This document shows, in pieces, positions 3,446-24,311 of a DNA stretch of 24,434 bases. Each line of letters starts with the position of its first letter. The first letter of the stretch is position 1. The translations under genes were made by a program, and so were the position numbers. This DNA comes from a virus, in IMG/VR virus record IMGVR_UViG_3300036832_000990, positions 1 through 24,434 of that record. One strand, written 5' to 3'. The notes below the pieces were generated by a model. It saw nothing but the letters and a program-made list of their open reading frames with translations. It was not told where the DNA came from and ran no database searches.

Positions 3446-3820
3446 ATGGCGACGAATCTCCTGGCGCTGCCATTGGTGCAGCTCTCGGTCTACACCGGCA
3501 ACAATGAGGACTGGATCGACACGCTCCAGTTCCTCGACGTTGACGGCAACCCGATCGCGCTCACCGGCATCAGCTTTGCGATGGAAGTGCGCAAGGGGCC
3601 GCCCGACCATACGGTGCTGCTGGAAGCCTCGACCGACAACGGATTGATCGCCATCGCGGGCAGCGATTTCAGCTATCTCGCGATCCGGGTTCCGATCGCG
3701 CACATGAGCGACTTCCTGGCGGATTCCTATGTGGCCGACATCGTCGGCCAAGATGCCACGAACGCGCGCGTCATCATTCAAGTGACGCCGCTGCAAGTCT
3801 TCGAAGGCATCACGCGGTGA
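3446..3820 (+). CDS. Small structural protein preceding collagen-like fibre
   Basis: 124-aa protein of unknown family. It reads as an all-beta protein: '[20 protein letters not shown]' followed by '[19 protein letters not shown]' resembles immunoglobulin-like domains found in phage neck or fibre adaptors. A GAGAGG motif seven bases before the ATG supports the start. The stop overlaps the GTG start of the collagen-like fibre by 4 nt (GTGA), so the two proteins are probably made together and may form one fibre complex. The connector role is inference from position. Confidence 0.65.
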
Positions 3821-4884
3821 CGATCTCGACCTCCGACATTGTGCGGCAGACCGGCTCGCCGGGGCCTGCAGGACCGCCGGGCGCGAGCGGGGCGGCCGGC
3901 GCGACTGGTCTAACCGGGCCTGCTGGTCCGACCGGCGCGAGCGGTGCAACGGGGCCGATAGGTGCGACCGGACCCGGCGTCGGCTCGACCGGCGCCACCG
4001 GCCTGACCGGAGCAACCGGGCCGGCCGGCGCATCAGGGCCGCCCGGCACCGTCGGGCCGGCGGGGGCGACCGGGCCGGCCGGCGCAACCGGCGTCGGTGC
4101 AACGGGAGCCACCGGGCCCGTCGGCGCAAGCGGAGGGCCGATCGGCGCCACCGGGGCGAGCGGGCCGGCGGGCGCGAGCGGGCCGGCGGGCCTCACCGGG
4201 CCAGCGGGAGCAACCGGACCGGCGGGGCCGACCGGCGCAACCGGCCTCACCGGGCCAGCGGGAGCAACCGGGCCTGTGGGCACAACCGGCCCGGCGGGTG
4301 CGACCGGTGCAACCGGATCAAGCGCGACCGCTTGGACCACCGGCGACATAAAGCTGACCTTCAAGACGGCGCCTGATGCCGGCTTCGTGATGATGAATGA
4401 TCTCTCGATCGGCGACGCCTCATCGGGCGCGACCAATCGAGCGAATAACGATACCGTCAATCTGTTCACGCTGTTCTACAACAATTGCGTCGATGCCGAT
4501 GTGCCGATCCAAACATCCACCGGCGCGGCAACGACGCGCGCCGCGCAAGGCGCTGCGGTAACGGCTTTCGGGAACCATTGCCGCCTTGTGCTGCCGAAGG
4601 CGCTCGGCCGCGATCTTGCCGTGGCGGGCGCCGGATCGGGCCTGACCTCGCGCGCCCTCGGCTCGAACACAGGCACGGAAACGCACACCATCACCACCAC
4701 TGACCTGCCGGCTCTTTCGGCGAATGCCGTGTTTGAAAACTTCGGGACCGGCAGCGATTCCGGTCAGAAGGGCGGCACCACTGGCCTCTCGCTCTTGCAG
4801 ACTGCTCCGGTAATCACCACCGGCAGCGGCTCCATGTCGATCATCAACCCCCGCACCCATCTCAATGTCATGGTGTGTCTATGA
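3817..4884 (+). CDS. Collagen-like tail fibre with C-terminal collar/receptor-binding head (fibre 1)
   Basis: 355-aa fibre. Residues 1-12 form a short N-terminal tag. Residues about 13-168 are nearly uninterrupted Gly-X-Y triplets dominated by GAT, GPA, GPT and GAS, expected to form a collagen-like triple helix. Short breaks are visible ([19 protein letters not shown]). The C-terminal ~185 residues form a non-repetitive head: '[19 protein letters not shown]', '[17 protein letters not shown]', '[13 protein letters not shown]' and the final '[13 protein letters not shown]' match phage tail-collar/microcystin-dependent-protein heads that end a fibre. The start is GTG at 3817, overlapping the upstream stop. 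The Y position is very rich in Thr, a potential O-glycosylation substrate given the glycosyltransferase downstream. Confidence 0.85.
3853..4323 (+). repeat. Gly-X-Y (collagen-like) coding repeat, fibre 1
   Basis: About 470 bp of imperfect 9-bp codon-triplet repeats (GGN-SCN-ACC/GCG type) encoding [12 protein letters not shown] triplets. The repeat is related at DNA level to the one in the second fibre (5403-5750), making slippage or recombination between them plausible. Confidence 0.85.
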
Positions 4885-5309
4885 AGCCGGAATTGCACCA
4901 GCATCCAACCGACGACATCTTCGTGCGCAGCGATAGCGGCATCTACAAAGACACGCCGGAAGATTTCACGGCCGATTGCTTGACCGTGGGCATTACCGAA
5001 TCGCTGCCGACACTGCCGGAAGGCGCGATCGAGCGCATCTATGTGCAGGGCGTGCGTCATGCGGTGATGTCGAGCGAGACCATCATCGAGGGCGGCCCGA
5101 TGCCGTGGCCGCTCGGTGATACGATCATTGCGGCGCTGCCGGAACTGCTCGCGGCGCAGGCCGATCGCCAGCCGCCCGTTCAAACGCTCGATCCCGAATT
5201 GCAGCGCAAGGCGATCGAGGATGCCGCGAACGCGCGCGCCAAAGTCGGTGCCGCGCTCGGGCCGCTCGGCATCACGCTCGCGGACCTCGCCAGCGCGCTC
5301 GGGTTGTGA
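4881..5309 (+). CDS. Small protein between two collagen-like fibres (possible fibre chaperone)
   Basis: 142-aa protein from the ATG at 4881, which overlaps the fibre-1 stop as ATGA; an in-frame GTG two codons earlier (4875) is the alternative. It begins '[29 protein letters not shown]' and ends with an Ala/Leu-rich helical tail (about 95-142, '[20 protein letters not shown]'). I do not recognise the family. Its place directly after a fibre gene is where tail-fibre assembly chaperones usually lie, and a helical C-terminus fits, but that is inference only. Confidence 0.6.
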
Positions 5310-5315
5310 TCTGCG

Positions 5316-6143
5316 ATGGCTGACGAGCTTCCCATCGTCCGCGCGTCGGCGCTGATCATCCAAGCCGGCGCGCTGACCGCCAACGCCGGCACCGCCAGGC
5401 TGACCGGGCCGCCGGGGCCTGCAGGGCCGGCGGGCGCGACGGGCGCAAGCGGCGCGACCGGCTTCGTCGGACCCGCCGGGCCTCCGGGCGCAACCGGATC
5501 GACCGGCGCAAGCGGAGGCCCGATCGGCGCAACGGGGCCTGCCGGCCTGACGGGAGCGCCGGGCGCCACCGGCGCGACCGGACCCATCGGGGCGCAGGGC
5601 GTGACGGGTGCGACCGGGCCGGGCGCGGGCTCGACGGGTGCGACCGGCGCCTCGGGGCCTTCGGGCGCGACCGGCTCGACCGGGCCAGCGGGCGCCAGCG
5701 GCGTACCGGGCGTGCAAGGGCCAGCGGGCGCAACGGGCGCCACCGGACCCAACCCGGTGCCCGCGACCACCGCCATGCTGTTCCTGCAAGCGGCGGCGCC
5801 GACCGGGTGGACGCGCGTCACCACCTATGACGACTCGCTGCTGCGCATCGTGGGCTCGGTGGCGCCGAGCTTCGGCGGCGTGAATGGCTTTGTCGCGGTC
5901 TACAACTCACAAACGGCGGTCGGCAACACGACGCTGACGACAAGCACCATGCCGCCCCACGCGCACGCGCAAGACCCGAACACGGTCCTCGCCGGTGGGC
6001 CAAATAGAATCCTCTACGGCGGCACGGGAGCGGCGGCGAGCTACGGCTCTAATACCGCCTCGCAAGGCGGCGGCGCTGCGCACGCGCATGGCATCACGCG
6101 CAACGTCAAATATGTCGATGCCCTGGTCGCAACCAAGAACTGA
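5316..6143 (+). CDS. Collagen-like tail fibre with tail-collar head (fibre 2)
   Basis: 275-aa fibre. Residues 1-29 form a hydrophobic, helical N-terminus. Residues about 30-145 are Gly-X-Y repeats (GAT, GPA, GAS, with breaks at GGPIG and GPGAGSTG). The C-terminal ~125 residues form a tail-collar-like head: '[27 protein letters not shown]', then 'FGGVNGF', 'TMPPHAHAQ' and '[25 protein letters not shown]'. The 'P.GWT....D..LLRIVG...GG..GF' and 'H.H......VKYVDALVA' patterns are typical of phage receptor-binding collar heads. The head differs from that of fibre 1 although the shafts are alike, so the phage apparently carries two alternative or co-assembled collagen fibres. Confidence 0.87.
5403..5750 (+). 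repeat. Gly-X-Y (collagen-like) coding repeat, fibre 2
   Basis: About 350 bp encoding Gly-X-Y triplets, similar in codon pattern to 3853-4323. The edges are approximate, set where the triplet periodicity begins (TGPPGPAG) and ends (GATGPN). Confidence 0.82.
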
Positions 6144-6861: not shown

Positions 6862-7470
6862 ATGCAAGTCACGATCAATCGCGTCGATGGGCTGGTCATC
6901 ATCGACGGCAAACCTCTGACGGTCGATCTCTCGCGCATGGACAAGGCCATCGCGGTGGTGCAGTGGGATGGCGTTAAGGCGCGCGGCTGGATCGAATACG
7001 TCAACGATCGATTCGCAGCGGGCGACTTCAGAGCCAATACGCCGATCGATACCATTGCGGATTTCAGTTTCGCGATCGACGCCTACCGGGCGAAGGCGGA
7101 ACGCCTGGCGCAATCGCCGACCCTCGATCAGCTGAAAGATGTCAAGCGCCTGCAATGGGAGCGCGTGCGCCGCGCCGCGATCTTGGACGGCTTCCAATCG
7201 AGCGCGCTCGGCCTGCCGCATTTCTACAGCGGCGCCCCGCTCGATCAGATCGCCATGATCTCCGCGATCATCCTGCAGCGGGATGCGAGGATTTTTTGCC
7301 GCGATGGAACCGACCGCTGGGCGATGCGCCAGCACAGTGTGGCGCAAATCAGCGAGGCCTTTCAGGATGGCCGCACCGCCATCGATGCCGTGATGGATAA
7401 ATACTGCCTGCTGCTGGAGCAGATCGAGGCGGCGACCACGCCGCAGGCGCTGGCGGCGATCAGTCTGTGA
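6862..7470 (+). CDS. Phage tail-region protein with DUF4376-like C-terminal half
   Basis: 202-aa protein. Residues 1-75 form a small beta-rich domain ('VDGLVIIDGKPLTVDLS ... VQWDGVKARGWIEY') of a type often seen downstream of fibres. Residues about 80-200 contain 'LKDVKRLQWERVRRAAILDGFQSSALG', 'YSGAPLDQIAMISAIIL' and 'HSVAQISEAFQDGRTAI'. That pattern ('K..W...R...........G......D......' then a helix) is like DUF4376 segments in tail-fibre proteins, assigned from memory with moderate confidence. It starts 4 nt after the cupin-like gene and its stop overlaps the glycosyltransferase GTG start by 4 nt, so it belongs to the same transcript. Confidence 0.62.
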   Translation: MQVTINRVDGLVIIDGKPLTVDLSRMDKAIAVVQWDGVKARGWIEYVNDRFAAGDFRANTPIDTIADFSFAIDAYRAKAERLAQSPTLDQLKDVKRLQWERVRRAAILDGFQSSALGLPHFYSGAPLDQIAMISAIILQRDARIFCRDGTDRWAMRQHSVAQISEAFQDGRTAIDAVMDKYCLLLEQIEAATTPQALAAISL

Positions 7471-8576
7471 CGCGCTATCGCTTCCATATCTTGGGCGTCC
7501 CGCACACCGCATCAAACCGGGAATGGCTGACGTGCGCCTACACGCAGAAGATCGTCAAACTCTGCGCCATGCTCAAGGCGCGCGGGCATACCGTGATCCA
7601 CTACGGCAACGCGGCATCCGATGTCGCCTGCGATGAGCACGTCAGCGTAACCGAGCGCGGCGACCTCGGGCCGCCGGAAGGCTACATCAACTTCGATCTC
7701 AAGAGCCGCGTCTACAAGCTGTTCCATCGCGCCGCGATTGCCGCGATCGAACGGCGCAAAGAGCCTCACGACTTTCTGCTGTGCATGTGGGGCGAGGGCC
7801 ATCGCGCGGTCGCGGAAGCGCATCCCGACATGATCGTGGTCGAGCCCGGCATCGGTTATGCCGGCGGGCATTTCGCCCCGTTCAAGGTGTTCGAGAGCTA
7901 CGCGATCCTGCACGCCTATTACGGGCTCGCGGCGGTCGGCACGTCCGACTTCGTCAAATGGTATGACGTAGTCATCCCGAATTTTTTCGACCTCAATGAC
8001 TTCCAGTTCTCGGCGAGCAAGGACGACTATCTGTTGTTCCTGGGTCGCGTCTATTCCGGCAAGGGCGTGCATATCGCGATCGAGCTGGCCGAGCGCGTCG
8101 CGACGCGGCTCATCATCGCGGGGCCCGGCAAGATCGAGAAGCCGGCCTATGCCGGCATCGACATCGTCGGCACGGTCGGCCCGGACGAACGCCGCGAATT
8201 GCTGGCGCACGCGCGCGCCCTGATCGCCCCGTCGATGTTCGTCGAGCCGTTCTGTGGCGTGGTGACCGAAGCGCACCTGTCGGGCACGCCGACCATCACC
8301 AACGATTGGGGCAGTTTCGCCGAGAACAACCTGCACGGCGTCACCGGCTTTCGCTGCCGCACGTTCGAGCATTTCGAATGGGCGGCGCGCAACATCGATC
8401 AGATTGATCCGCACACTTGCCGCGCCTGGGCCGAGAACAACTTTTCGATCGAGCGCGTCGGTGAGATGTATGACGAATTTTTCTGGTCGGTCATGAACAT
8501 CTTCACCGGCAAGGGATGGTACGAGCCCAATCCTGGACGGCGCGATCTCGGATGGCTCGCGCGCCATGCCCCGTAA
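7467..8576 (+). CDS. GT-B glycosyltransferase (GT4-like)
   Basis: 369-aa retaining GT-B-type glycosyltransferase, predicted to transfer a sugar from a nucleotide-sugar donor. The N-terminal acceptor domain opens 'FHILGVPHTASNREWLTCAYTQK'. The C-terminal donor domain begins near 'LFLGRVYSGKGVHIAIELA' (about residue 190) and includes 'LIIAGPG'. The hallmark E-x7-E, 'EPFCGVVTEAHLSGTP', lies at residues 260-275 (E260, E268) and is followed by 'GVTGFRC'. No signal peptide or membrane segment is visible, so it should be cytoplasmic. GTG start, overlapping the previous stop. It could modify host surface glycans (lysogenic conversion) or the Thr-rich collagen fibres made from the same operon; its place in the late operon favours a virion substrate. 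Confidence 0.82.
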   Translation: MTRYRFHILGVPHTASNREWLTCAYTQKIVKLCAMLKARGHTVIHYGNAASDVACDEHVSVTERGDLGPPEGYINFDLKSRVYKLFHRAAIAAIERRKEPHDFLLCMWGEGHRAVAEAHPDMIVVEPGIGYAGGHFAPFKVFESYAILHAYYGLAAVGTSDFVKWYDVVIPNFFDLNDFQFSASKDDYLLFLGRVYSGKGVHIAIELAERVATRLIIAGPGKIEKPAYAGIDIVGTVGPDERRELLAHARALIAPSMFVEPFCGVVTEAHLSGTPTITNDWGSFAENNLHGVTGFRCRTFEHFEWAARNIDQIDPHTCRAWAENNFSIERVGEMYDEFFWSVMNIFTGKGWYEPNPGRRDLGWLARHAP

Positions 8577-10223: not shown

Positions 10224-10856
10224 CTACTGATTACCGTGCAGCTTCGATGGGCGCCATTGATCGGGATGCTGCAAGATGTCGTCGCGCTCCATCACTTTAT
10301 TGTTGTCGCGCGCCTCGACCCAATCGCCGCCGGTCATCTGCGGCGGAATGAGTGCGAAGCCGCGGCGATTGTCGTATCGAATGAGCGCGACCGCGCGTTC
10401 CTTCTCGAACCGACGCAAGAGCCATGCGCGCAGCACCGGATCGCGATGCGCATCCGGGTAGTCGGGATCGACCCACACCTGGATCGCCGGGACATCGGTC
10501 GGCGGCGAGCCGTCGTTCGGGTTCATGCGGATCACGTCTGGCATGATGTCAATCACGTAGTGGGCGCGGTCGGGCCGCGAAAGGTCCGCGGCGTCGTCAT
10601 TGACCAGCCACCGGCAATTCCACACCCGGCAACCGAACGGCCGGCGCGCATAGACGCTGCAACCCTTGTGATGGCGCTGATGCGGGCAACGCGCGCCGGC
10701 CGGCTTGTCGAATTCGTCGAGCATGCCGACCAGCTCGGATCGGTCCATGAAGCCGGCGCCTACCAGAGCTTGCGCGGCCGGGCCGGTGGCGCGGTTCTGC
10801 GCGGCCTGCATCGGCAGGAGCTTGCAGCACAAATTGCACTCGCCGCAGTTACGCAT
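10224..10856 (-). CDS. YkgJ-like cysteine-cluster (zinc/iron-binding) protein
   Basis: 210-aa protein with the cysteine pattern of the YkgJ/CxxCxxCC family. 'NCGECNLCCKLLP' lies at the N-terminus, followed by 'KPAGARCPHQRHHKGCSVYARRPFGCRVWNCRW' (about 51-83). That is the family's C...GC.VY..RP..CR...C.W signature, thought to bind Zn or an Fe-S cluster. The C-terminal ~120 residues look like a phage-type extension ('DIMPDVIRMNPNDGS', 'RDPVLRAWLLRRFEKERAVALI'). Function in phages is unknown. The start overlaps the upstream stop by 8 nt. Confidence 0.75.
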   Translation of the reverse strand: MRNCGECNLCCKLLPMQAAQNRATGPAAQALVGAGFMDRSELVGMLDEFDKPAGARCPHQRHHKGCSVYARRPFGCRVWNCRWLVNDDAADLSRPDRAHYVIDIMPDVIRMNPNDGSPPTDVPAIQVWVDPDYPDAHRDPVLRAWLLRRFEKERAVALIRYDNRRGFALIPPQMTGGDWVEARDNNKVMERDDILQHPDQWRPSKLHGNQ

Positions 10857-12718: not shown

Positions 12719-12991
12719 TCAATTCGGCTTGCCTCTCACATGGAGCAGGCTCACGGCGTTGCGCAAGGTTTTGACGCGCCGGTCGGCCATGATGCTCCGC
12801 AATTCGTCCGGCGTCGGTTCGCGCAGCTTGCCGCCTCGGGTGAAGATCGCAATGTGCCCGCATTGGATACACACCGAAACGTCGCCGCGCGCCGGACGGT
12901 CCTTGCTATCGGCCGGCGTCGCGGAATCGAGAACCTTCTCGCAGCGCATGCAGCGTTTTTCCGCCACCCGATGCGTGGGGCCGAGCCTCAT
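12719..12991 (-). CDS. Zinc-ribbon protein, unknown
   Basis: 90-aa protein from the ATG at 12991, which overlaps the ATPase stop (ATGA); this is preferred to the upstream ATG at 13003. Two CxxC knuckles ('CMRCEKVL' and 'CIQCGHIA', about 30 residues apart) suggest a zinc ribbon. The C-terminal part ('REPTPDELRSIMADRRVKTLRNAVSLL') is helical. As far as I recall, similar small zinc-ribbon proteins with this 'R.PT..E...I' tail are common in alphaproteobacterial prophages. A nucleic-acid-binding role is plausible but unproven. Confidence 0.66.
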   Translation of the reverse strand: MRLGPTHRVAEKRCMRCEKVLDSATPADSKDRPARGDVSVCIQCGHIAIFTRGGKLREPTPDELRSIMADRRVKTLRNAVSLLHVRGKPN

Positions 12992-14835
12992 GGGTAAAGC
13001 CAATCGGAAATGCGCACCTTGCCGCGTTCGGGATAACTGACGAGATCGAGGCTCTTGAGACGCGAGCGCAGCGTGTCGAAGGTGCTCGACGTGAACGAAT
13101 AACCTGTCGCCTCGGCAAGCTCTTCCAGCGTCAGCGTCTTGCGACCGATCAGCGCGTCGAAAAATTTCTGCAAGGGGCCTGAGAGCTTGGCGCGCACGCG
13201 ATCATGATAGTCGATCATGGTCGGGGGTTGGGCCGGCGCGACCGCGAGGCGGGCGCCTTCCTCGGTCAAGCGCATGCGGCCTTGCACAGGATATTCGATC
13301 AGCCCCGCCGACTTCGCGCGCGAGCGCAACGTGTCGAAGGTCGACGAAGTATGCGAGTAGCCGGCGACGAAACCCACTTGCGCCAGCGTCGGCGCGCTCT
13401 GGCCGCCCACGCGCCACCAGGCCAAAGCGTTGAGGATCGCTTGCGGACCTCGGGCGAGCTTGGCGGGGGATGCCGATTCCGGGGCGCGGCTTGGCATGGG
13501 CAGCGGAAATGGCGGTAGCGCGTCGGGCGGCGCCTTGAGCACCCGGATCGGATAGGCATTGTCGAGGCCCGCCGCTAGGTCTTCGCGCCCGCGCAGCTTC
13601 GGCAGCTTGGACAGTGCCGCCAGATCGGGCGCCTTGAGCAAGGAGTCGCGCAACGTGCTGATGTCGGCGATCGAGCGCATTGCCTGCTCGCGAAGCCCGG
13701 TCGTGGCCTCGTCGAGCTTCCGATAGGCCTCGGTCACCAACGGATTGAGCTGTTGCGCAACCTCATCGCGCCCGTGCGTGAAACCTTCGGCGTAGCCGGC
13801 GGCCTTCCCGCGCGCGAGGCTTTCGGCGGCGGTGCGCTCCATCAGCTCTTGCGCGGCGGCCGTCGCCCGCTCGAACGTGCCGGTCGCGAGCTTGCGCAGC
13901 TCCAGCTCCAGCTCGACGATGCGGCCCTTGAGTGTGGGCACGTCATTGGCCTCGGCCTCGGCCACCGCGTCGCCGATCAGCGTGCGCAATTCGTTGTGGT
14001 CGACCGCCGCCGTCTTGACATCGATGGCGCCCGACTCCTTGTCCGGGGTCGCGGTGTTGTCGAAGGTGCGGATGCGCGGGAAGGCGATGCACTCGAAAAT
14101 CTTGGCCACCCCAGAGCAAAGCCAGCCAGTGCCATCGGGCAACGACGACATTGTGTCCTCGATCTCGCGGCGCACCGCCGCTTCCTTCACGTTGCCCTTG
14201 AGCCATTTCAGCACCGGGTCTTGATCGGCCGGCAGCATCAGGCGATGCGCGATCAGCGACAGGCAGGAACCAAGCAAGGCATTATGCAGCGATTGGGTGC
14301 GCTGCGTCGCCACGACGATGCGGATGCCCTTCGAGCGGCCGGCGGTCGCGAGCTTCTTGGCAAAATGCAGCGCGAGATTTTCCTTGCCGAAGCCGGCGCG
14401 TTCCTTCGGGGCGAATTCGTGCGCTTCCTCGACAACCAAATAAACGACGCCCCGCACGCTGCGCAGCAACGCCGGTGCGAAGTCGCAAAAGAACCGCTGC
14501 AAGCCGCCGGCCTCAAAATCCGCCATGTCGATGATCGCGAGCGGCAGCTTGCCGGTGCCCACGAGCTGGCCGATGACCTTGCCGGCCGACGACGGCAGCG
14601 GGATGTGCCCGTGCGGGCCGCCGAGAATTTTGAACGGCAGACCTTCGCGCTTGCCGCTGGCGCTCGACGTGATGCCCCACCAATCGGATTTGACCGGGTC
14701 GAGGATGCAGACGCGGTGCCCGTCGGCCACCACCTGCTCGATGATCAGTTTGGCGGTCGAAGTCTTACCCGAGCCCGTCATGCCGAGCACGGCGATGTGC
14801 GATCCAAGCACGGCTTCGGGGATGCGGTAGCTCAT
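12988..14835 (-). CDS. HerA/FtsK-type ATPase with duplicated C-terminal wHTH-like segments
   Basis: 615-aa protein; the start at 14835 overlaps the upstream stop as ATGA, so the longer reading is rejected. Walker A 'GMTGSGKT' lies at residues 18-25, a Walker B-like strand plus 'EEAH' ('VVYLVVEEAHEF') at 130-141, and a downstream arginine-rich 'RSKGIRIVVATQRTQSLH' motif matches the sensor region of HerA/DUF87 ATPases. After the motor comes a helical coiled-coil-like stretch (about 300-430). Two repeated C-terminal segments, 'GYSHTSSTFDTLRSR..SAGLIEYP' and 'GYSFTSSTFDTLRSR..SLDLVSYP', look like tandem winged-helix domains. HerA proteins translocate on dsDNA and often pair with the nuclease NurA, which I do not see here. 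Possible roles are DNA processing, packaging-like translocation or defence. Confidence 0.8.
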   Translation of the reverse strand: MSYRIPEAVLGSHIAVLGMTGSGKTSTAKLIIEQVVADGHRVCILDPVKSDWWGITSSASGKREGLPFKILGGPHGHIPLPSSAGKVIGQLVGTGKLPLAIIDMADFEAGGLQRFFCDFAPALLRSVRGVVYLVVEEAHEFAPKERAGFGKENLALHFAKKLATAGRSKGIRIVVATQRTQSLHNALLGSCLSLIAHRLMLPADQDPVLKWLKGNVKEAAVRREIEDTMSSLPDGTGWLCSGVAKIFECIAFPRIRTFDNTATPDKESGAIDVKTAAVDHNELRTLIGDAVAEAEANDVPTLKGRIVELELELRKLATGTFERATAAAQELMERTAAESLARGKAAGYAEGFTHGRDEVAQQLNPLVTEAYRKLDEATTGLREQAMRSIADISTLRDSLLKAPDLAALSKLPKLRGREDLAAGLDNAYPIRVLKAPPDALPPFPLPMPSRAPESASPAKLARGPQAILNALAWWRVGGQSAPTLAQVGFVAGYSHTSSTFDTLRSRAKSAGLIEYPVQGRMRLTEEGARLAVAPAQPPTMIDYHDRVRAKLSGPLQKFFDALIGRKTLTLEELAEATGYSFTSSTFDTLRSRLKSLDLVSYPERGKVRISDWLYP

Positions 14836-15032
14836 TGCGAATGCTTCTCCGCAATATGGGCGAGCACGGGTGCCGGGGTAGGCGGCAGCATCGCGATCTG
14901 CTCGGCCTTGAAGCCGTGGCGCGCGATGCAGAACCGGCAGGCGAAGCCCTGCGCGCCGTTCGTGTGAATGATCAGGATCGGCACGCGCCATTCGATCTCG
15001 GGATGGGCACGCGCCAGCTCTTCGTCAGTCAT
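14832..15032 (-). CDS. Small protein with CxxC motif, unknown
   Basis: 66-aa protein immediately upstream of the ATPase, overlapping it by ATGA. It has 'WRVPILIIHTNGAQGFACRFCIARHGFKA', with one CxxC and a nearby His, and a Pro-rich linker to 'AHIAEKHSQ'. The C-x2-C ... H-x4-H spacing could be a single zinc finger. The coupling suggests it works with or is regulated alongside the ATPase, but this is inference. Confidence 0.6.
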   Translation of the reverse strand: MTDEELARAHPEIEWRVPILIIHTNGAQGFACRFCIARHGFKAEQIAMLPPTPAPVLAHIAEKHSQ

Positions 15033-20152: not shown

Positions 20153-21259
20153 TCAGCCTCCATGGATTTCATATTCCTCGCGTTTGATTGCTCCTTTGCT
20201 GGCGTCGCCGCGCAGGAAGGACGACCACCAGAAGACCCCGGTCCCCGTTTTTGTTTTTCGAATCTTGAAATGCCCGCGAACCAGATGCTGGCGCGCGCTC
20301 TCGCGGTCGATGCCGCGCGCCGCGGCTATGCGCGCCTGGCTGCGCGAGAGCGCGAGCCGTGTGCGCCGGTAAGGCAGGAATTGCGAACGCCCGTTCTTGC
20401 GGCGTGCCTTGTTCAAGCGCGTGAGATCGACCGCTTCATGCTCGACACACGGGTTCTTGGTATTGAGCATGGCGAGGAAGCATTGCACCCACCCGCCCTC
20501 GCCCTGCACGTCGGCTTCCCACTTCAACATGAATTGTTGAATCTCTTTCGCGTTGCCGCGTGCCAGCACGAAGCCGATGATGCCGGTGCCGTGCGGCGAG
20601 ATGCCCGGCATCATGTGGCGGTCGAGTGTTTTCATCGCCTCGATCTCGCGCGCGTCGCGGAAGTCTTCCCAACGGTCCCGCCCCGTGAAGGTGGCCCGGA
20701 TCGCGGCCATGTCCGCGGTCATCCATTTGCTTTCGAGCTTTTGGCGGTAGAGGCCGACCAGGTCGCGCATGATCGGATCGGGGATCGAGCTGATAATGAG
20801 ATTGTGCGCGCGGTGAATGATGTTGCGCACATTGCCGTTCTCGCGCCAGTCGAAGTAGATGCTGATCGGCGAGATGTTGACGGCGTGCTCGATGGCATCG
20901 CATGTGTGCACCCAGGCGACGGTCATGAACCCGGTCTGACCGCCCGGCATCGATTCAATCAGGACGCCTTGCTTCGAGGGTGTCGGCGCGTCGTCGAATT
21001 TCCGGCGACCGACGCCGCCGTCCTTGCCGAGCCCCCCACGATATTCGACCCACATGGTTTCGTAGGGCAGCCGGCAGAGCGGCAGCGCGGCGACCAGGCT
21101 TGAGGGCCGCGAATCGATGAGATCGCCGGCTGCGCGGGCGACCTCGTCGGCGACCTCGAACCGCTCTGCGGTTTCGATCCAGGGCGCCATGTGCGCGGCG
21201 AAGCCGCCAATATCGTTGAGCGTCCCGCGCGCGGCGAGCATATCGTCGGCAAGTCTCAT
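20153..21259 (-). CDS. Large unknown phage protein (first gene of the minus operon)
   Basis: 368-aa protein with no recognised enzymatic motif. The middle has 'VAWVHTCDAIEHAVNISPISIYFDWRENGN' and 'DPIMRDLVGLYRQKLESKW'. The C-terminal ~90 residues are basic, with 'RLNKARRKNGRSQFLPYRRTRLALSRSQ' and 'RGHFKIRKTKTGTGVFWWSSFLRGD'. That 'V.GHFK.RKTGVFWW....RG' block recurs, as far as I recall, at the ends of other phage proteins and may be a nucleic-acid-binding or partner-binding module. It is the first gene after the predicted promoter. The ribosome-binding site is weak (GAGG only 2 nt before the ATG). Confidence 0.63.
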   Translation of the reverse strand: MRLADDMLAARGTLNDIGGFAAHMAPWIETAERFEVADEVARAAGDLIDSRPSSLVAALPLCRLPYETMWVEYRGGLGKDGGVGRRKFDDAPTPSKQGVLIESMPGGQTGFMTVAWVHTCDAIEHAVNISPISIYFDWRENGNVRNIIHRAHNLIISSIPDPIMRDLVGLYRQKLESKWMTADMAAIRATFTGRDRWEDFRDAREIEAMKTLDRHMMPGISPHGTGIIGFVLARGNAKEIQQFMLKWEADVQGEGGWVQCFLAMLNTKNPCVEHEAVDLTRLNKARRKNGRSQFLPYRRTRLALSRSQARIAAARGIDRESARQHLVRGHFKIRKTKTGTGVFWWSSFLRGDASKGAIKREEYEIHGG

Positions 21260-21443: not shown

Positions 21444-22073
21444 CTAAAAGCGCGCGCCGGTCGAATGTGACAGTCGCCCGTCAAGCAGTGTGCCTGCGGC
21501 ATCGCGCCGCGCCGATCGCCACGTCATGATTCCGAGCGCGAGCGCGATGAGCGACGCGAGCGCCGCCATGCCGGCGAGCATCGTGCCGCGCATCGGCGGC
21601 CGAGTGTCGCGATCTTGCTGTCGCAGCAAGAAATCGCTCTTGGGTGCGGTGCCCATTTTTTGCTCATCGAGTTGCAACCGGCGCACCTGGTCATAGAGCC
21701 TCGCATCGGCGTCGGCATCGACCGCCCGGAATGTGCGCTCGACCCGTTGCGTCGGATTATCGGCCGGCGCTGGCGCGATAATGGGCGGCGGTGCCGGCGG
21801 TGCTGAGAACCGCGCCACCTGGGCGGCGACATGGTGATGGCGGGCCTGGGTATGCGCCGTGACGCCGTCACGCCGCGCGCCGTGCCCACCCACGTACCAG
21901 CATCGCCGCCCGTCGACGATGCGATAACGCCGCCAGCCGTGGTCGTCCGGCAGGTTGCGATAGTCGGTGATGCATCGGTCGGCCGCGGGCGTCGCGGGTG
22001 CCGCCGCGGCCGGCGTGCAGGCGGCGAGCTGCAGTGCGAGCATTCCGCCGGCCAGGCATGCGAGGCTTTCCAT
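21444..22073 (-). CDS. Lipoprotein-like protein with C-terminal membrane segment
   Basis: 209-aa protein. The N-terminus 'LACLAGGMLALQLAAC' ends in a lipobox-like LAAC (Cys19), though the n-region lacks the usual Lys/Arg. A mature segment with 'RCITDYRNLPDDHGWRRYRIVDGRRCWYVG' follows (two cysteines, Trp-rich; a motif I associate with Bradyrhizobium cell-envelope proteins). Then come a Pro/Ala-rich linker and, at about 170-190, a transmembrane helix ('MLAGMAALASLIALALGIM'). GGGGAGG six to seven bases upstream supports the start. Gene content resembles a moron or host-derived gene rather than a core phage gene. Confidence 0.65.
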   Translation of the reverse strand: MESLACLAGGMLALQLAACTPAAAAPATPAADRCITDYRNLPDDHGWRRYRIVDGRRCWYVGGHGARRDGVTAHTQARHHHVAAQVARFSAPPAPPPIIAPAPADNPTQRVERTFRAVDADADARLYDQVRRLQLDEQKMGTAPKSDFLLRQQDRDTRPPMRGTMLAGMAALASLIALALGIMTWRSARRDAAGTLLDGRLSHSTGARF

Positions 22074-22089
22074 CGGGCGCCTCCCCTTT

Positions 22090-22560
22090 TTACGAGCGCA
22101 CCGGCGCGAAGCGGCGGACCTCGGCCGCGCCCTGCTCGATCAGCACGCGCTCGTTGGTCGCCCGCATGGTGTTCGACACCCGCTTGGCCAGCTCGGAAAA
22201 ATTCTCGATCCGGTCCTGGACGCGCGAGCCGCGTGCCCGCAAGGCGGCGGCGAGCGCGCGGGCTTCTTCGCCGATCTCGCTGGCCATCGTGGTGAGCGAA
22301 TCGGCGGTCTTCTCGATGTCGCGCGCCGCTACCTCGCAGGCGAGTGCGATGGCCTTGCCGGCCTCGACGCCGAGCACCGATGGTCCGGCTTCGGGCTCCG
22401 GGTCGCGCGGGTCGTTGTGCGGATCGAAGCCCACCTTGGCCCTAGCGGTGGGCGGTGATGGGCGTCGGGCGCCATTGTCCTGATGGTCGGGCGCGTCGCG
22501 CTCCAGCGCATCGGCGACGGCGGTAAGGCCGCGGTGGCCGGGATCGTTCGTGTCGGTCAT
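22090..22560 (-). CDS. Hydrophilic helical protein, unknown
   Basis: 156-aa protein beginning at 22560 (SD GGGAGAG close upstream; the longer in-frame ORF extends into the att region and is rejected). The first ~60 residues are disordered and rich in Asp/Pro. The rest is one long helical region ('ARDIEKTADSLTTMASEIGEEARALAAALRARGSRVQDRI'), probably a coiled coil, with a heptad pattern reminiscent of methyl-accepting or phasin-like helices. No function is known. It lies 16 nt upstream of the lipoprotein-like gene. Confidence 0.62.
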   Translation of the reverse strand: MTDTNDPGHRGLTAVADALERDAPDHQDNGARRPSPPTARAKVGFDPHNDPRDPEPEAGPSVLGVEAGKAIALACEVAARDIEKTADSLTTMASEIGEEARALAAALRARGSRVQDRIENFSELAKRVSNTMRATNERVLIEQGAAEVRRFAPVRS

Positions 22561-22594: not shown

Positions 22595-22618
22595 AGTTTG
22601 GGAATTAGTTTGGGACTC
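22595..22618 (+). repeat. Left-flank TTTGGGACT repeat (candidate arm site)
   Basis: Two tandem units, AGTTTGGGAAT and TAGTTTGGGACTC. The stretch 22595-22623 matches 22859-22887 at 27 of 29 positions. It lies about 150 bp left of the tRNA fragment. Confidence 0.75.
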
Positions 22619-22642
22619 TGTGTAACCAACCGTGAACAAATG

Positions 22643-22665
22643 GTCCCAAACAAGTCCCAAACTCG
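22643..22665 (-). repeat. Left-flank inverted TTTGGGACT repeat (candidate arm site)
   Basis: Two units on the opposite strand, GTCCCAAAC and AGTCCCAAACTCG on the plus strand. Same motif as the other two clusters, in inverted orientation. Confidence 0.72.
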
Positions 22666-22768
22666 CCGATTCGGACCCGACGAAAGCACAAAAATAGAAC
22701 GCTAAACTGTTGTGCGATCAGCGACTTAGCGCCGAAAATCGGGGAAACGTCGTCAGGCGACCATCGTC

Positions 22769-22813
22769 CTGTTAACCGGTTGGTCGCTGGTTCGAATCCG
22801 GCCCGGGGAGCCA
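22769..22813 (+). other. tRNA-Asn(GTT) 3' half: predicted attachment core
   Basis: The 45 nt run from the anticodon loop (CTGTTAA, anticodon GTT) through the variable loop, the T arm (GCTGG-TTCGAAT-CCGGC), the acceptor 3' strand (CCGGGGA), discriminator G and CCA. Each segment has the length seen in tRNA-Asn. The sequence just left (CATCGTC) cannot pair with the anticodon stem, so the 5' half is absent. This is the usual form of attP or attR for a tyrosine integrase that targets a tRNA 3' end. The integrase gene ends 18 nt away. Confidence 0.85.
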
Positions 22814-22831
22814 GCGATTTCAAAGACTTAG

Positions 22832-24043
22832 TCATCCGACCACCTTCAGCTTACCGCGAGTTTGGGACTTAGTTTGGGACTCCGTGTCATCCGCGGCGCC
22901 GGTTTGGGATTGGCTCGCTGCGGCGAGCGCCGCTTCGTTCGCAGCCGCGGTCGCTTCCAGCGCGGCCGTAAGCTCGGTCTTGAGCACATGCCGATACTTG
23001 CGCGTCGTCTTGATGTCCGCGTGGCCCATAAGCTCCTGCGTGATGCTGAGATCGCGAGCCTGCCGCGTCAGGCGCGACGCCGCGGTATGGCGCAGATCGT
23101 GCCAGCGCAGGCTGGCGATGCCGGCTTCCTTCTTGGCCCGCTGCCAGCGCGATTGCAGCCCCCAATAGGTGATCGGGTAGCGCCGGCCCTTTGCACGCTC
23201 GCCTTGAACCTTGCCGCCATGATGACCGGTCGCGACATAGGTGAAGACGTGCACCGCATGATGCCCGACCAGCGGGCGCAGGATGGCCTCGATCGCGGCC
23301 GTCAGCGGCATGGTTTTCTGTTCCTGCTTGCCCTTGCGGTTCTTCGCCAGATAGCGGATCACCCGGTTCTGCCAATCGACCTGCGACCACGTCAGCAGCG
23401 CGCGTCGCTTGCGCAGCCCCGCCAGAATCGAGAACTTGAAGATCGGCGCGTAGTCGTCGCGGATCGTATCGACCAGCTTGGCTTCCTCGTCGAAGGTCGC
23501 TTCGCGCGGCGTCTCGCCGGCCGGTTCATCGAGCATCGGCCATTTCAGCGCGCGCACGTTCGCATCGTAGCGGTCGGTGACGTGCCGGATGGCGGCGCGA
23601 AAAACCTCCATGGTGCGGTTGACCGTGGTGTTCGAGATCGGCTTCAACATCGGGCGCCCCTTGGCGTCGGTGCCGATCCGCTTCATCTGCGCGCGCCGCT
23701 TTTTCTGTACCTCGGTCAGCATGGTGTTGGTGAGATCGTGGACCGGCGTTTCGGGATCGATCAGCGCAACGATGTCGTCCCGCATCGGCGAGCCGATCAG
23801 GCGCACCAGCTCGGCCTCGTCGCCGCCCACGTCACTCGCGTAATGCCCGAATGCGATATTGATCGTCATCGGCTTCTTGCCCTGTTCGCGCTCGGCACGC
23901 ACTATCACTTCGGCTTTCGCGATTTCGGCTTGCTCGACGGCGATTGCTCCGCGCTTGCTCGTTGCGCCAGTTGGTCCCGAAAACCGATGACCTCCGCGCC
24001 AGAAGTCGAAGTAGTAGAGTCCCTTGGTTTTGGTGATTGACAT
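22832..24043 (-). CDS. int: Tyrosine-type site-specific integrase
   Basis: 403-aa phage integrase, catalysing recombination between attP and a tRNA-Asn attB. The N-terminus 'MSITKTKGLYYFDFWRGGHRFSG' is an arm-binding domain. The core-binding region lies at about 75-180. Catalytic residues are visible: R211 (in 'AGLRKRR'), the beta-hairpin Lys region ('AKNRKGKQEQKTMPL'), H315 and R318 (in 'WHDLRHTAASRL'), H341 (in 'LMGHADIKTTRKYRH') and nucleophile Y350. The C-terminal tail ('ESQTKSQTRG') is encoded by one of the candidate arm-site repeats. The gene ends 18 nt from the att core. The start is supported by the conserved N-terminal sequence but overlaps the upstream HTH gene by 139 nt. Confidence 0.93.
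   Translation of the reverse strand: MSITKTKGLYYFDFWRGGHRFSGPTGATSKRGAIAVEQAEIAKAEVIVRAEREQGKKPMTINIAFGHYASDVGGDEAELVRLIGSPMRDDIVALIDPETPVHDLTNTMLTEVQKKRRAQMKRIGTDAKGRPMLKPISNTTVNRTMEVFRAAIRHVTDRYDANVRALKWPMLDEPAGETPREATFDEEAKLVDTIRDDYAPIFKFSILAGLRKRRALLTWSQVDWQNRVIRYLAKNRKGKQEQKTMPLTAAIEAILRPLVGHHAVHVFTYVATGHHGGKVQGERAKGRRYPITYWGLQSRWQRAKKEAGIASLRWHDLRHTAASRLTRQARDLSITQELMGHADIKTTRKYRHVLKTELTAALEATAAANEAALAAASQSQTGAADDTESQTKSQTRGKLKVVG
22859..22882 (+). repeat. Right-flank TTTGGGACT repeat inside the integrase 3' end
   Basis: Tandem AGTTTGGGACT and TAGTTTGGGACTC, near-identical to 22595-22618. On the minus strand it encodes the SQTKSQT tail of the integrase. It lies about 50 bp right of the att core. 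Confidence 0.78.
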
Positions 24044-24288
24044 GGTATTCGCTGCCTCGCCTGTCGGGTCAGAAATCCGGCCACGTCGCCCAGCGTGAAC
24101 CGGCGGTGCGGACGCTTGGCCCCCGTGCCGATTTGATGAAATGTGAGATCGCCGGCCTCGATATGATTGGTGAGCGTGTGACGATCAGATTCGAGCGCGT
24201 CGGCAAGCTCTTCGATACCGATCCAGGTGCGACCTTCGAAGACACGCCGAACGCGGTCCGGCAACTCCACTGCGGTTTCCATCGACAT
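23905..24288 (-). CDS. Excisionase-like winged-helix DNA-binding protein
   Basis: 127-aa protein. Residues about 14-72 ('RTWIGIEELADALESDRHTLTNHIEAGDLTFHQIGTGAKRPHRRFTLGDVAGFL') form a MerR/excisionase-type wHTH. It is directly upstream of the integrase in the same orientation, the normal place for Xis. The start is placed at 24288 because a GGGAGAG sits six bases upstream; ATGs at 24303 and 24282 are alternatives. The C-terminal ~45 residues are Ser/Lys/Arg-rich, low in structure, and lie in the 139-nt overlap with the integrase, so that end may be poorly constrained. Confidence 0.72.
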   Translation of the reverse strand: MSMETAVELPDRVRRVFEGRTWIGIEELADALESDRHTLTNHIEAGDLTFHQIGTGAKRPHRRFTLGDVAGFLTRQARQRIPCQSPKPRDSTTSTSGAEVIGFRDQLAQRASAEQSPSSKPKSRKPK

Positions 24289-24311
24289 GATGGACTCTCC
24301 CATTGTAACGG

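Follow-up and report, generated by a model that had tools for sequence, protein, structure and literature searches.

Near the right end of this viral DNA, the 3' part of a tRNA gene lies among repeats of one short motif and beside an integrase gene. This raises the question of whether the site marks the boundary between a prophage and its host or is the intact attachment site (attP) of a phage that was not integrated. The window, by which we mean the whole stretch analysed, is the entire linear record of an uncultivated virus (24,434 bp). The record has no end repeats and its left end is cut inside an incomplete baseplate gene, and it is a linear fragment. ARAGORN detected no complete tRNA in the 24,434 bp, and a DNA-level search of phage records with the window gave no match. 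We conclude that the region 22595-22911 is very probably the intact attP of a temperate phage of Alphaproteobacteria with a tRNA-Asn(GTT) gene as its integration target, a judgement that includes the recombination mechanism proposed below. Its design is of the ordinary lambda type, but unusually complete.

The repeats and the tRNA-derived core

The repeats, the identity and boundary of the core, the identities of the genes and the conserved spacing are computed. The features on which the argument draws are the following.

20153-21259, minus strand: phage gene to the left of attP, with relatives 66-69% identical in three viral contigs
22595-22617, plus strand: distal P-arm pair, predicted arm-type sites (AGTTTGGGAAT and AGTTTGGGACT, 12 bp apart), from the repeat search; VSN-002, Ssp-JY40 and RHph_I3_18 have an equivalent pair past the core
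22642-22663, minus strand: proximal P-arm pair, inverted, predicted (TGTTTGGGACC and AGTTTGGGACT, 11 bp apart), from the repeat search
22716-22728, plus strand: weak IHF-like site GATCAGCGACTTA, one mismatch to WATCARNNNNTTR, 50 bp left of the loop centre
22757-22765, plus strand: weak candidate left core-type site GCGACCATC, which is complementary to 22779-22787 at 8 of 9 bases
22769-22813, plus strand: attP core, 45 nt equal to positions 32-76 of tRNA-Asn(GTT), from exact matches in genomes, each intact by ARAGORN
22769-22775, plus strand: anticodon loop CTGTTAA, predicted 7-bp crossover region, from the boundary of core identity
22779-22787, plus strand: weak candidate right core-type site GTTGGTCGC inside the tRNA part, in the same dyad as 22757-22765
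22818-22830, plus strand: weak IHF-like site TTTCAAAGACTTA between core and P' arm, one mismatch, 52 bp right of the loop centre; also seen in relatives
22832-24043, minus strand: int, tyrosine recombinase of 403 aa (PF00589, E 8e-22; phrog_1 integrase, E 5e-35; AlphaFold model)
22859-22881, plus strand: P'-arm pair, predicted arm-type sites 12 bp apart in the 3' coding end of int, encoding ESQTKSQT, from the repeat search and relatives
22901-22911, plus strand: weak third P'-arm copy GGTTTGGGATT, two mismatches, also inside int, encoding SQT
23905-24303, minus strand: xis-like gene of 132 aa with a weak HTH_17 match, overlapping the 5' end of int; resembles the phiLM21 excisionase

A previous sequence-only reading of this DNA had described copies of one motif on both sides of the core, and a motif scan of the 24,434 bp bears this out. 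Exact copies of AGTTTGGGACT start at 22607, 22859 and 22871 on the plus strand and at 22653 on the minus strand (four observed, 0.002 expected in the record), and near copies at 22595 (one mismatch), 22642 (minus strand, two mismatches) and 22901 (two mismatches). These seven are all the matches with up to two mismatches and none falls outside 22595-22911, while dinucleotide shuffles of the sequence gave about two scattered matches each and reached seven in 1 of 100 cases. The right-hand and left-hand pairs share 27 of 29 nt. There are then four predicted arm sites on the left and two plus a weak one on the right, with none elsewhere in the 24 kb. Going beyond the sequence-only reading, we found that the right-hand copies are not intergenic but lie within the coding sequence of the integrase, in its last codons (...SQSQTGAADDTESQTKSQTRGKLKVVG), and that there is the weaker third copy at 22901.

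Searching the literature with the repeat motif returned only unrelated primer-like sequences. A scan of viral contigs for doubled GTTTGGGAC retrieved 52 stretches, mostly coding repeats with a period of 12 nt and no related integrase, among which only two (L113 and L122) seemed relevant. In both (L113:9148-9900 and L122:360-960), a tyrosine integrase has directly after it TTTGGGAC motifs arrayed on both strands, and after these come several tRNA-Glu copies. Their motif is that of the window, though their integrase is not detectably related to int.

The core itself (22769-22813) is, as had been proposed, the 3' half of a tRNA without its 5' partner, since the sequence upstream does not continue the tRNA. 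Exact copies of the 45-mer were present in 10 of 398 Pseudomonadota genomes, all ten within an intact tRNA-Asn(GTT) gene according to ARAGORN. Identity with these genes starts precisely at C32, where the anticodon loop begins, and extends as far as the CCA, the preceding base being different in 10 of 10. These 45 nt are therefore the sequence held in common with the host attB, and an identity starting at C32 is the form expected if the anticodon loop is where crossover takes place and the 3' part of the tRNA gene comes from the phage. The bases that follow the core (22814-22831, gcgatttcaaagacttag) resemble the host sequence after tRNA-Asn in three genomes (L199, L201 and L202; e.g. acatttccaagcactta), and in the true host the shared stretch may therefore exceed 45 nt.

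Other elements expected around a lambda-type core are much fainter. The candidate core-type sites form a dyad centred exactly on 22772, with 8 of 13 positions paired, a weak signal since about 1.3% of the centres in the window score as high. One-mismatch matches to the IHF-like sequence WATCARNNNNTTR number 12 in the window against 9 expected by chance. There is a modest enrichment in the interval between core and P' arm, with 8 matches over 27 related loci versus 1.1 expected, at offsets of -52 in the window, -53 in locus L230 and -40 to -45 in most others.

The integrase gene and the two flanks

The integrase gene lies to the right of the core and is convergent with the tRNA part. In the AlphaFold model (mean pLDDT only 66), the first 55 residues are predicted to form a beta-beta-beta-alpha domain (pLDDT about 72) that is followed by the recombinase fold, and among the Foldseek matches to the model are the lambda integrase tetramer (1z1g), XerH and the Tn1549 integrase. 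Within the moderate confidence of the model, the protein fits the lambda domain plan of an N-terminal arm-binding-type domain plus a PF00589 catalytic domain. Its relatives in genome and viral contigs are remote matches. The overlapping xis-int order is found also in Sinorhizobium phage phiLM21, whose annotated excisionase is 31% identical to the xis-like product (E 7e-14) and whose integrase is 35% identical to that of the window; unlike in the window, no GTCCC-type pair was called in the tail of the phiLM21 integrase.

That both flanks are phage DNA, another proposal of the sequence-only reading, agrees with the gene content. The right flank carries int and the xis-like gene, and the left flank has predicted arm sites of the same integrase and, further out, the viral-type gene at 20153-21259. 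Relatives were sought for the two genes between the latter and the core (21444-22560) and none was found, which leaves the arm repeats and the gene order as the basis for assigning 21.3-22.6 kb to the phage. The three viral contigs with relatives of the 20153-21259 gene (L165-L167) have neither the int nor the attP of the window and could not show the junction.

The repeats, the identity of the core, the int and xis flank and the shared plan of the relatives described below argue together for an intact lambda-type attP belonging to an unintegrated (or tandem) temperate phage and against a host boundary. The tandem arrangement, in which the record would span the junction of two like prophages side by side at the tRNA-Asn gene, would have a P-core-P' sequence identical to attP, as would a free genome or a concatemer, and the record is linear, 24 kb long and devoid of end repeats. 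We nevertheless regard it as unlikely, given that it requires two neighbouring elements with the same integrase specificity, a single free phage being simpler, and that an uncultivated-virus record may derive from virion or replicating DNA. A simple boundary, with the tRNA part as attL or attR and host DNA on one side, could appeal to the two genes without relatives left of the site. It was rejected and is very improbable: if the left side were host, the tRNA at the int side should be complete, and it is incomplete even though int adjoins its 3' end; moreover, the left side has arm sites that match those in int, at a distance like that in complete phages, and the next gene leftward is viral.

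Several other genes of the window deserve mention. A HerA/FtsK-like ATPase of 667 aa (12988-14991, minus strand), with weak matches to HerA helicases and to a terminase family, has relatives 41-65% identical in 14 viral contigs. Tail-fibre-like genes with long collagen-like Gly-X-Y stretches (3817-6143, plus strand) have downstream of them a glycosyltransferase-like gene (7467-8576, plus strand) that is a possible accessory gene, as is a gene with a CxxCxxCC metal-binding domain (10224-10856, minus strand).

Position of the P' pair in related integrases

An attP-like layout with arm sites on both sides was the central claim of the sequence-only reading. It is upheld by a core that matches intact tRNA-Asn genes exactly, by the int and excisionase-like genes and by related prophages and complete phages, whose sites have the same geometry. 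Sphingopyxis phage VSN-002, Synechococcus phage Ssp-JY40 and Rhizobium phage RHph_I3_18 have integrases 31-34% identical to that of the window (over 87-88%), and we have read their attP regions, which are unannotated, from the sequence records. Each has, like the window, one pair spaced by 11 or 12 bp in the tail of int and a second such pair past a tRNA-derived core. The repeat units are GTCCCGGA or CACGG in these phages and GTCCCAAAC in the window, the P' distance is 86-89 bp versus 108, and their core comes from the other side of the loop, being the 5' half of tRNA-Pro or tRNA-Val, whereas that of the window is the 3' part of tRNA-Asn. From the P-side pair to the loop centre there are 134 bp in VSN-002 and Ssp-JY40, 154 in RHph_I3_18 and 156 in the window, which on either side exceeds the first two by about two helical turns. 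The inverted pair nearer the core on the P side (equivalent to 22642-22663) is missing from VSN-002 and Ssp-JY40, which weighs against our reading.

Phage lambda (NC_001416) also has a core between two multi-site arms, with int read toward attP and the P' sites reaching the int stop. Measured from its overlap centre, the P' sites of lambda begin at 53, 63 and 74 bp and the int stop is at 80, so that only P'3 (74) touches int, unlike the window pair, which starts about 86 bp out and is wholly inside int. Since the last P' site of lambda touches the stop codon, the window layout can be described as that of lambda with the P' sites moved into the gene. The lambda core, unlike that of the window, is not a tRNA gene, and the arm motifs differ. 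A different alphaproteobacterial tyrosine integrase, IntS of ICEMlSymR7A, has several arm-type sites in a 283-bp attP (PMC11963761). Unlike in the window, the arm motif there is TGKTGGTATC, and intS is downstream of attL with its promoter near attP (PMC11963761).

We have examined the position of the pair in a set of 42 integrases (that of the window and its relatives). A strict GTCCC-type pair, 11-12 bp apart and within 160 nt of the int stop, was present in 16 of 42, against 0 of 638 control windows (overlapping) elsewhere in the same genes. Distances were referred to the centre of the anticodon loop of the adjoining tRNA-derived core, assigned by eye in a first set of 28 loci. The best pair was 85-89 bp from the loop centre in 23 of the 28, some of these pairs being weak; four had it at 108-111 bp (the window, at 108, and loci L230, L231 and L232) and one at 130 bp. 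For the eleven strong pairs at 87-89 bp the standard deviation of the distance was 0.64 bp, matched by 1 in 100,000 permutations of pair positions, with the proviso that one strong-pair locus (L222) has a displaced stop codon that inflates the spread of single positions, not that of the distance. In a second set, mostly from another genome sample, an automatic rule placed the loop; here the pair was at 85-88 bp in 12 of 20 loci, and eight strong pairs lay at 86, 87, 87, 87, 88, 88, 98 and 110 bp. An additional class-wise sample of genomes yielded few integrases. Taken over all loci, which are not fully independent because the integrases are homologous, the distance is usually 87 +/- 2 bp and less often about 10, 21 or 43 bp more, classes separated by about one, two and four helical turns; the window belongs to the +21 class.

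Around this distance much else varies. After GTCCC the repeat unit continues with AAAC, GGAA, GAAA, GCGA or ACCA in different elements, the position of the stop codon changes by tens of bases, and different tRNAs (Pro, Val, Ser, Asn) and tRNA halves are used, all of which counts against simple shared descent of the sequence. The fixed helical distance from pair to loop in many integrases, despite differing stop codons and tRNAs, also bears on whether the repeats are arm sites at all. Regulatory operators, or a by-product of a protein repeat (the SQT codons in the int tail), would account for the right pair encoding ESQTKSQT and for the same 9-mer in unrelated coding repeats of other viral contigs, but only three of the seven copies fall within int and two of the remaining four are on the opposite strand, so we give such explanations hardly any credence.

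Judging from these loci, the P' arm embedded in coding sequence and helically spaced appears to be a property of the group. We consider it reasonably probable that many alphaproteobacterial tRNA-directed integrases carry their P' sites in their own C-terminal codons, with selection holding them about 87, 98, 109 or 130 bp from the crossover, whatever the tRNA, its half or the stop codon. Our literature search, in open-licence papers only, found no earlier description of such an arm.

About 19 of the 28 related elements have as their core not the 3' but the 5' half of a tRNA, mostly Pro: the complete phages L183, L184 and L189, the elements L187 and L188, and some 14 genome loci among L206-L232. 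In those elements the phage would have to supply the promoter of the tRNA after integration.

Proposed recombination and its meaning

Following the lambda paradigm (PMC4880445), from which we infer the binding events, the exact crossover point and the roles of the HTH protein and IHF, the small N-terminal domain of the integrase would bind the AGTTTGGGACT arm-type sites on the P side (22595-22663) and the P' side (22859-22881). Its core-binding and catalytic domains would bind the inverted sites flanking the anticodon loop, the integrase thereby bridging arm and core. Strand exchange between attP and the host gene would then occur across the 7-bp loop CTGTTAA (22769-22775), and the 45 nt of the phage would rebuild the host tRNA-Asn gene, reading toward the 3' end of int. 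The overlapping HTH gene (23905-24303) would be the excisionase.

The window thus provides a complete attP from an uncultivated phage, with a predicted crossover point, and its target gene identifies tRNA-Asn as the site in the host. The spacing rule offers a way to locate attP, arm sites and crossover in many alphaproteobacterial prophages from sequence alone, and predicts which residues of the integrase tail exist for the sake of the DNA. If the rule is true, the C-terminal tail of these integrases would be shaped by constraints of DNA sites rather than by protein function.
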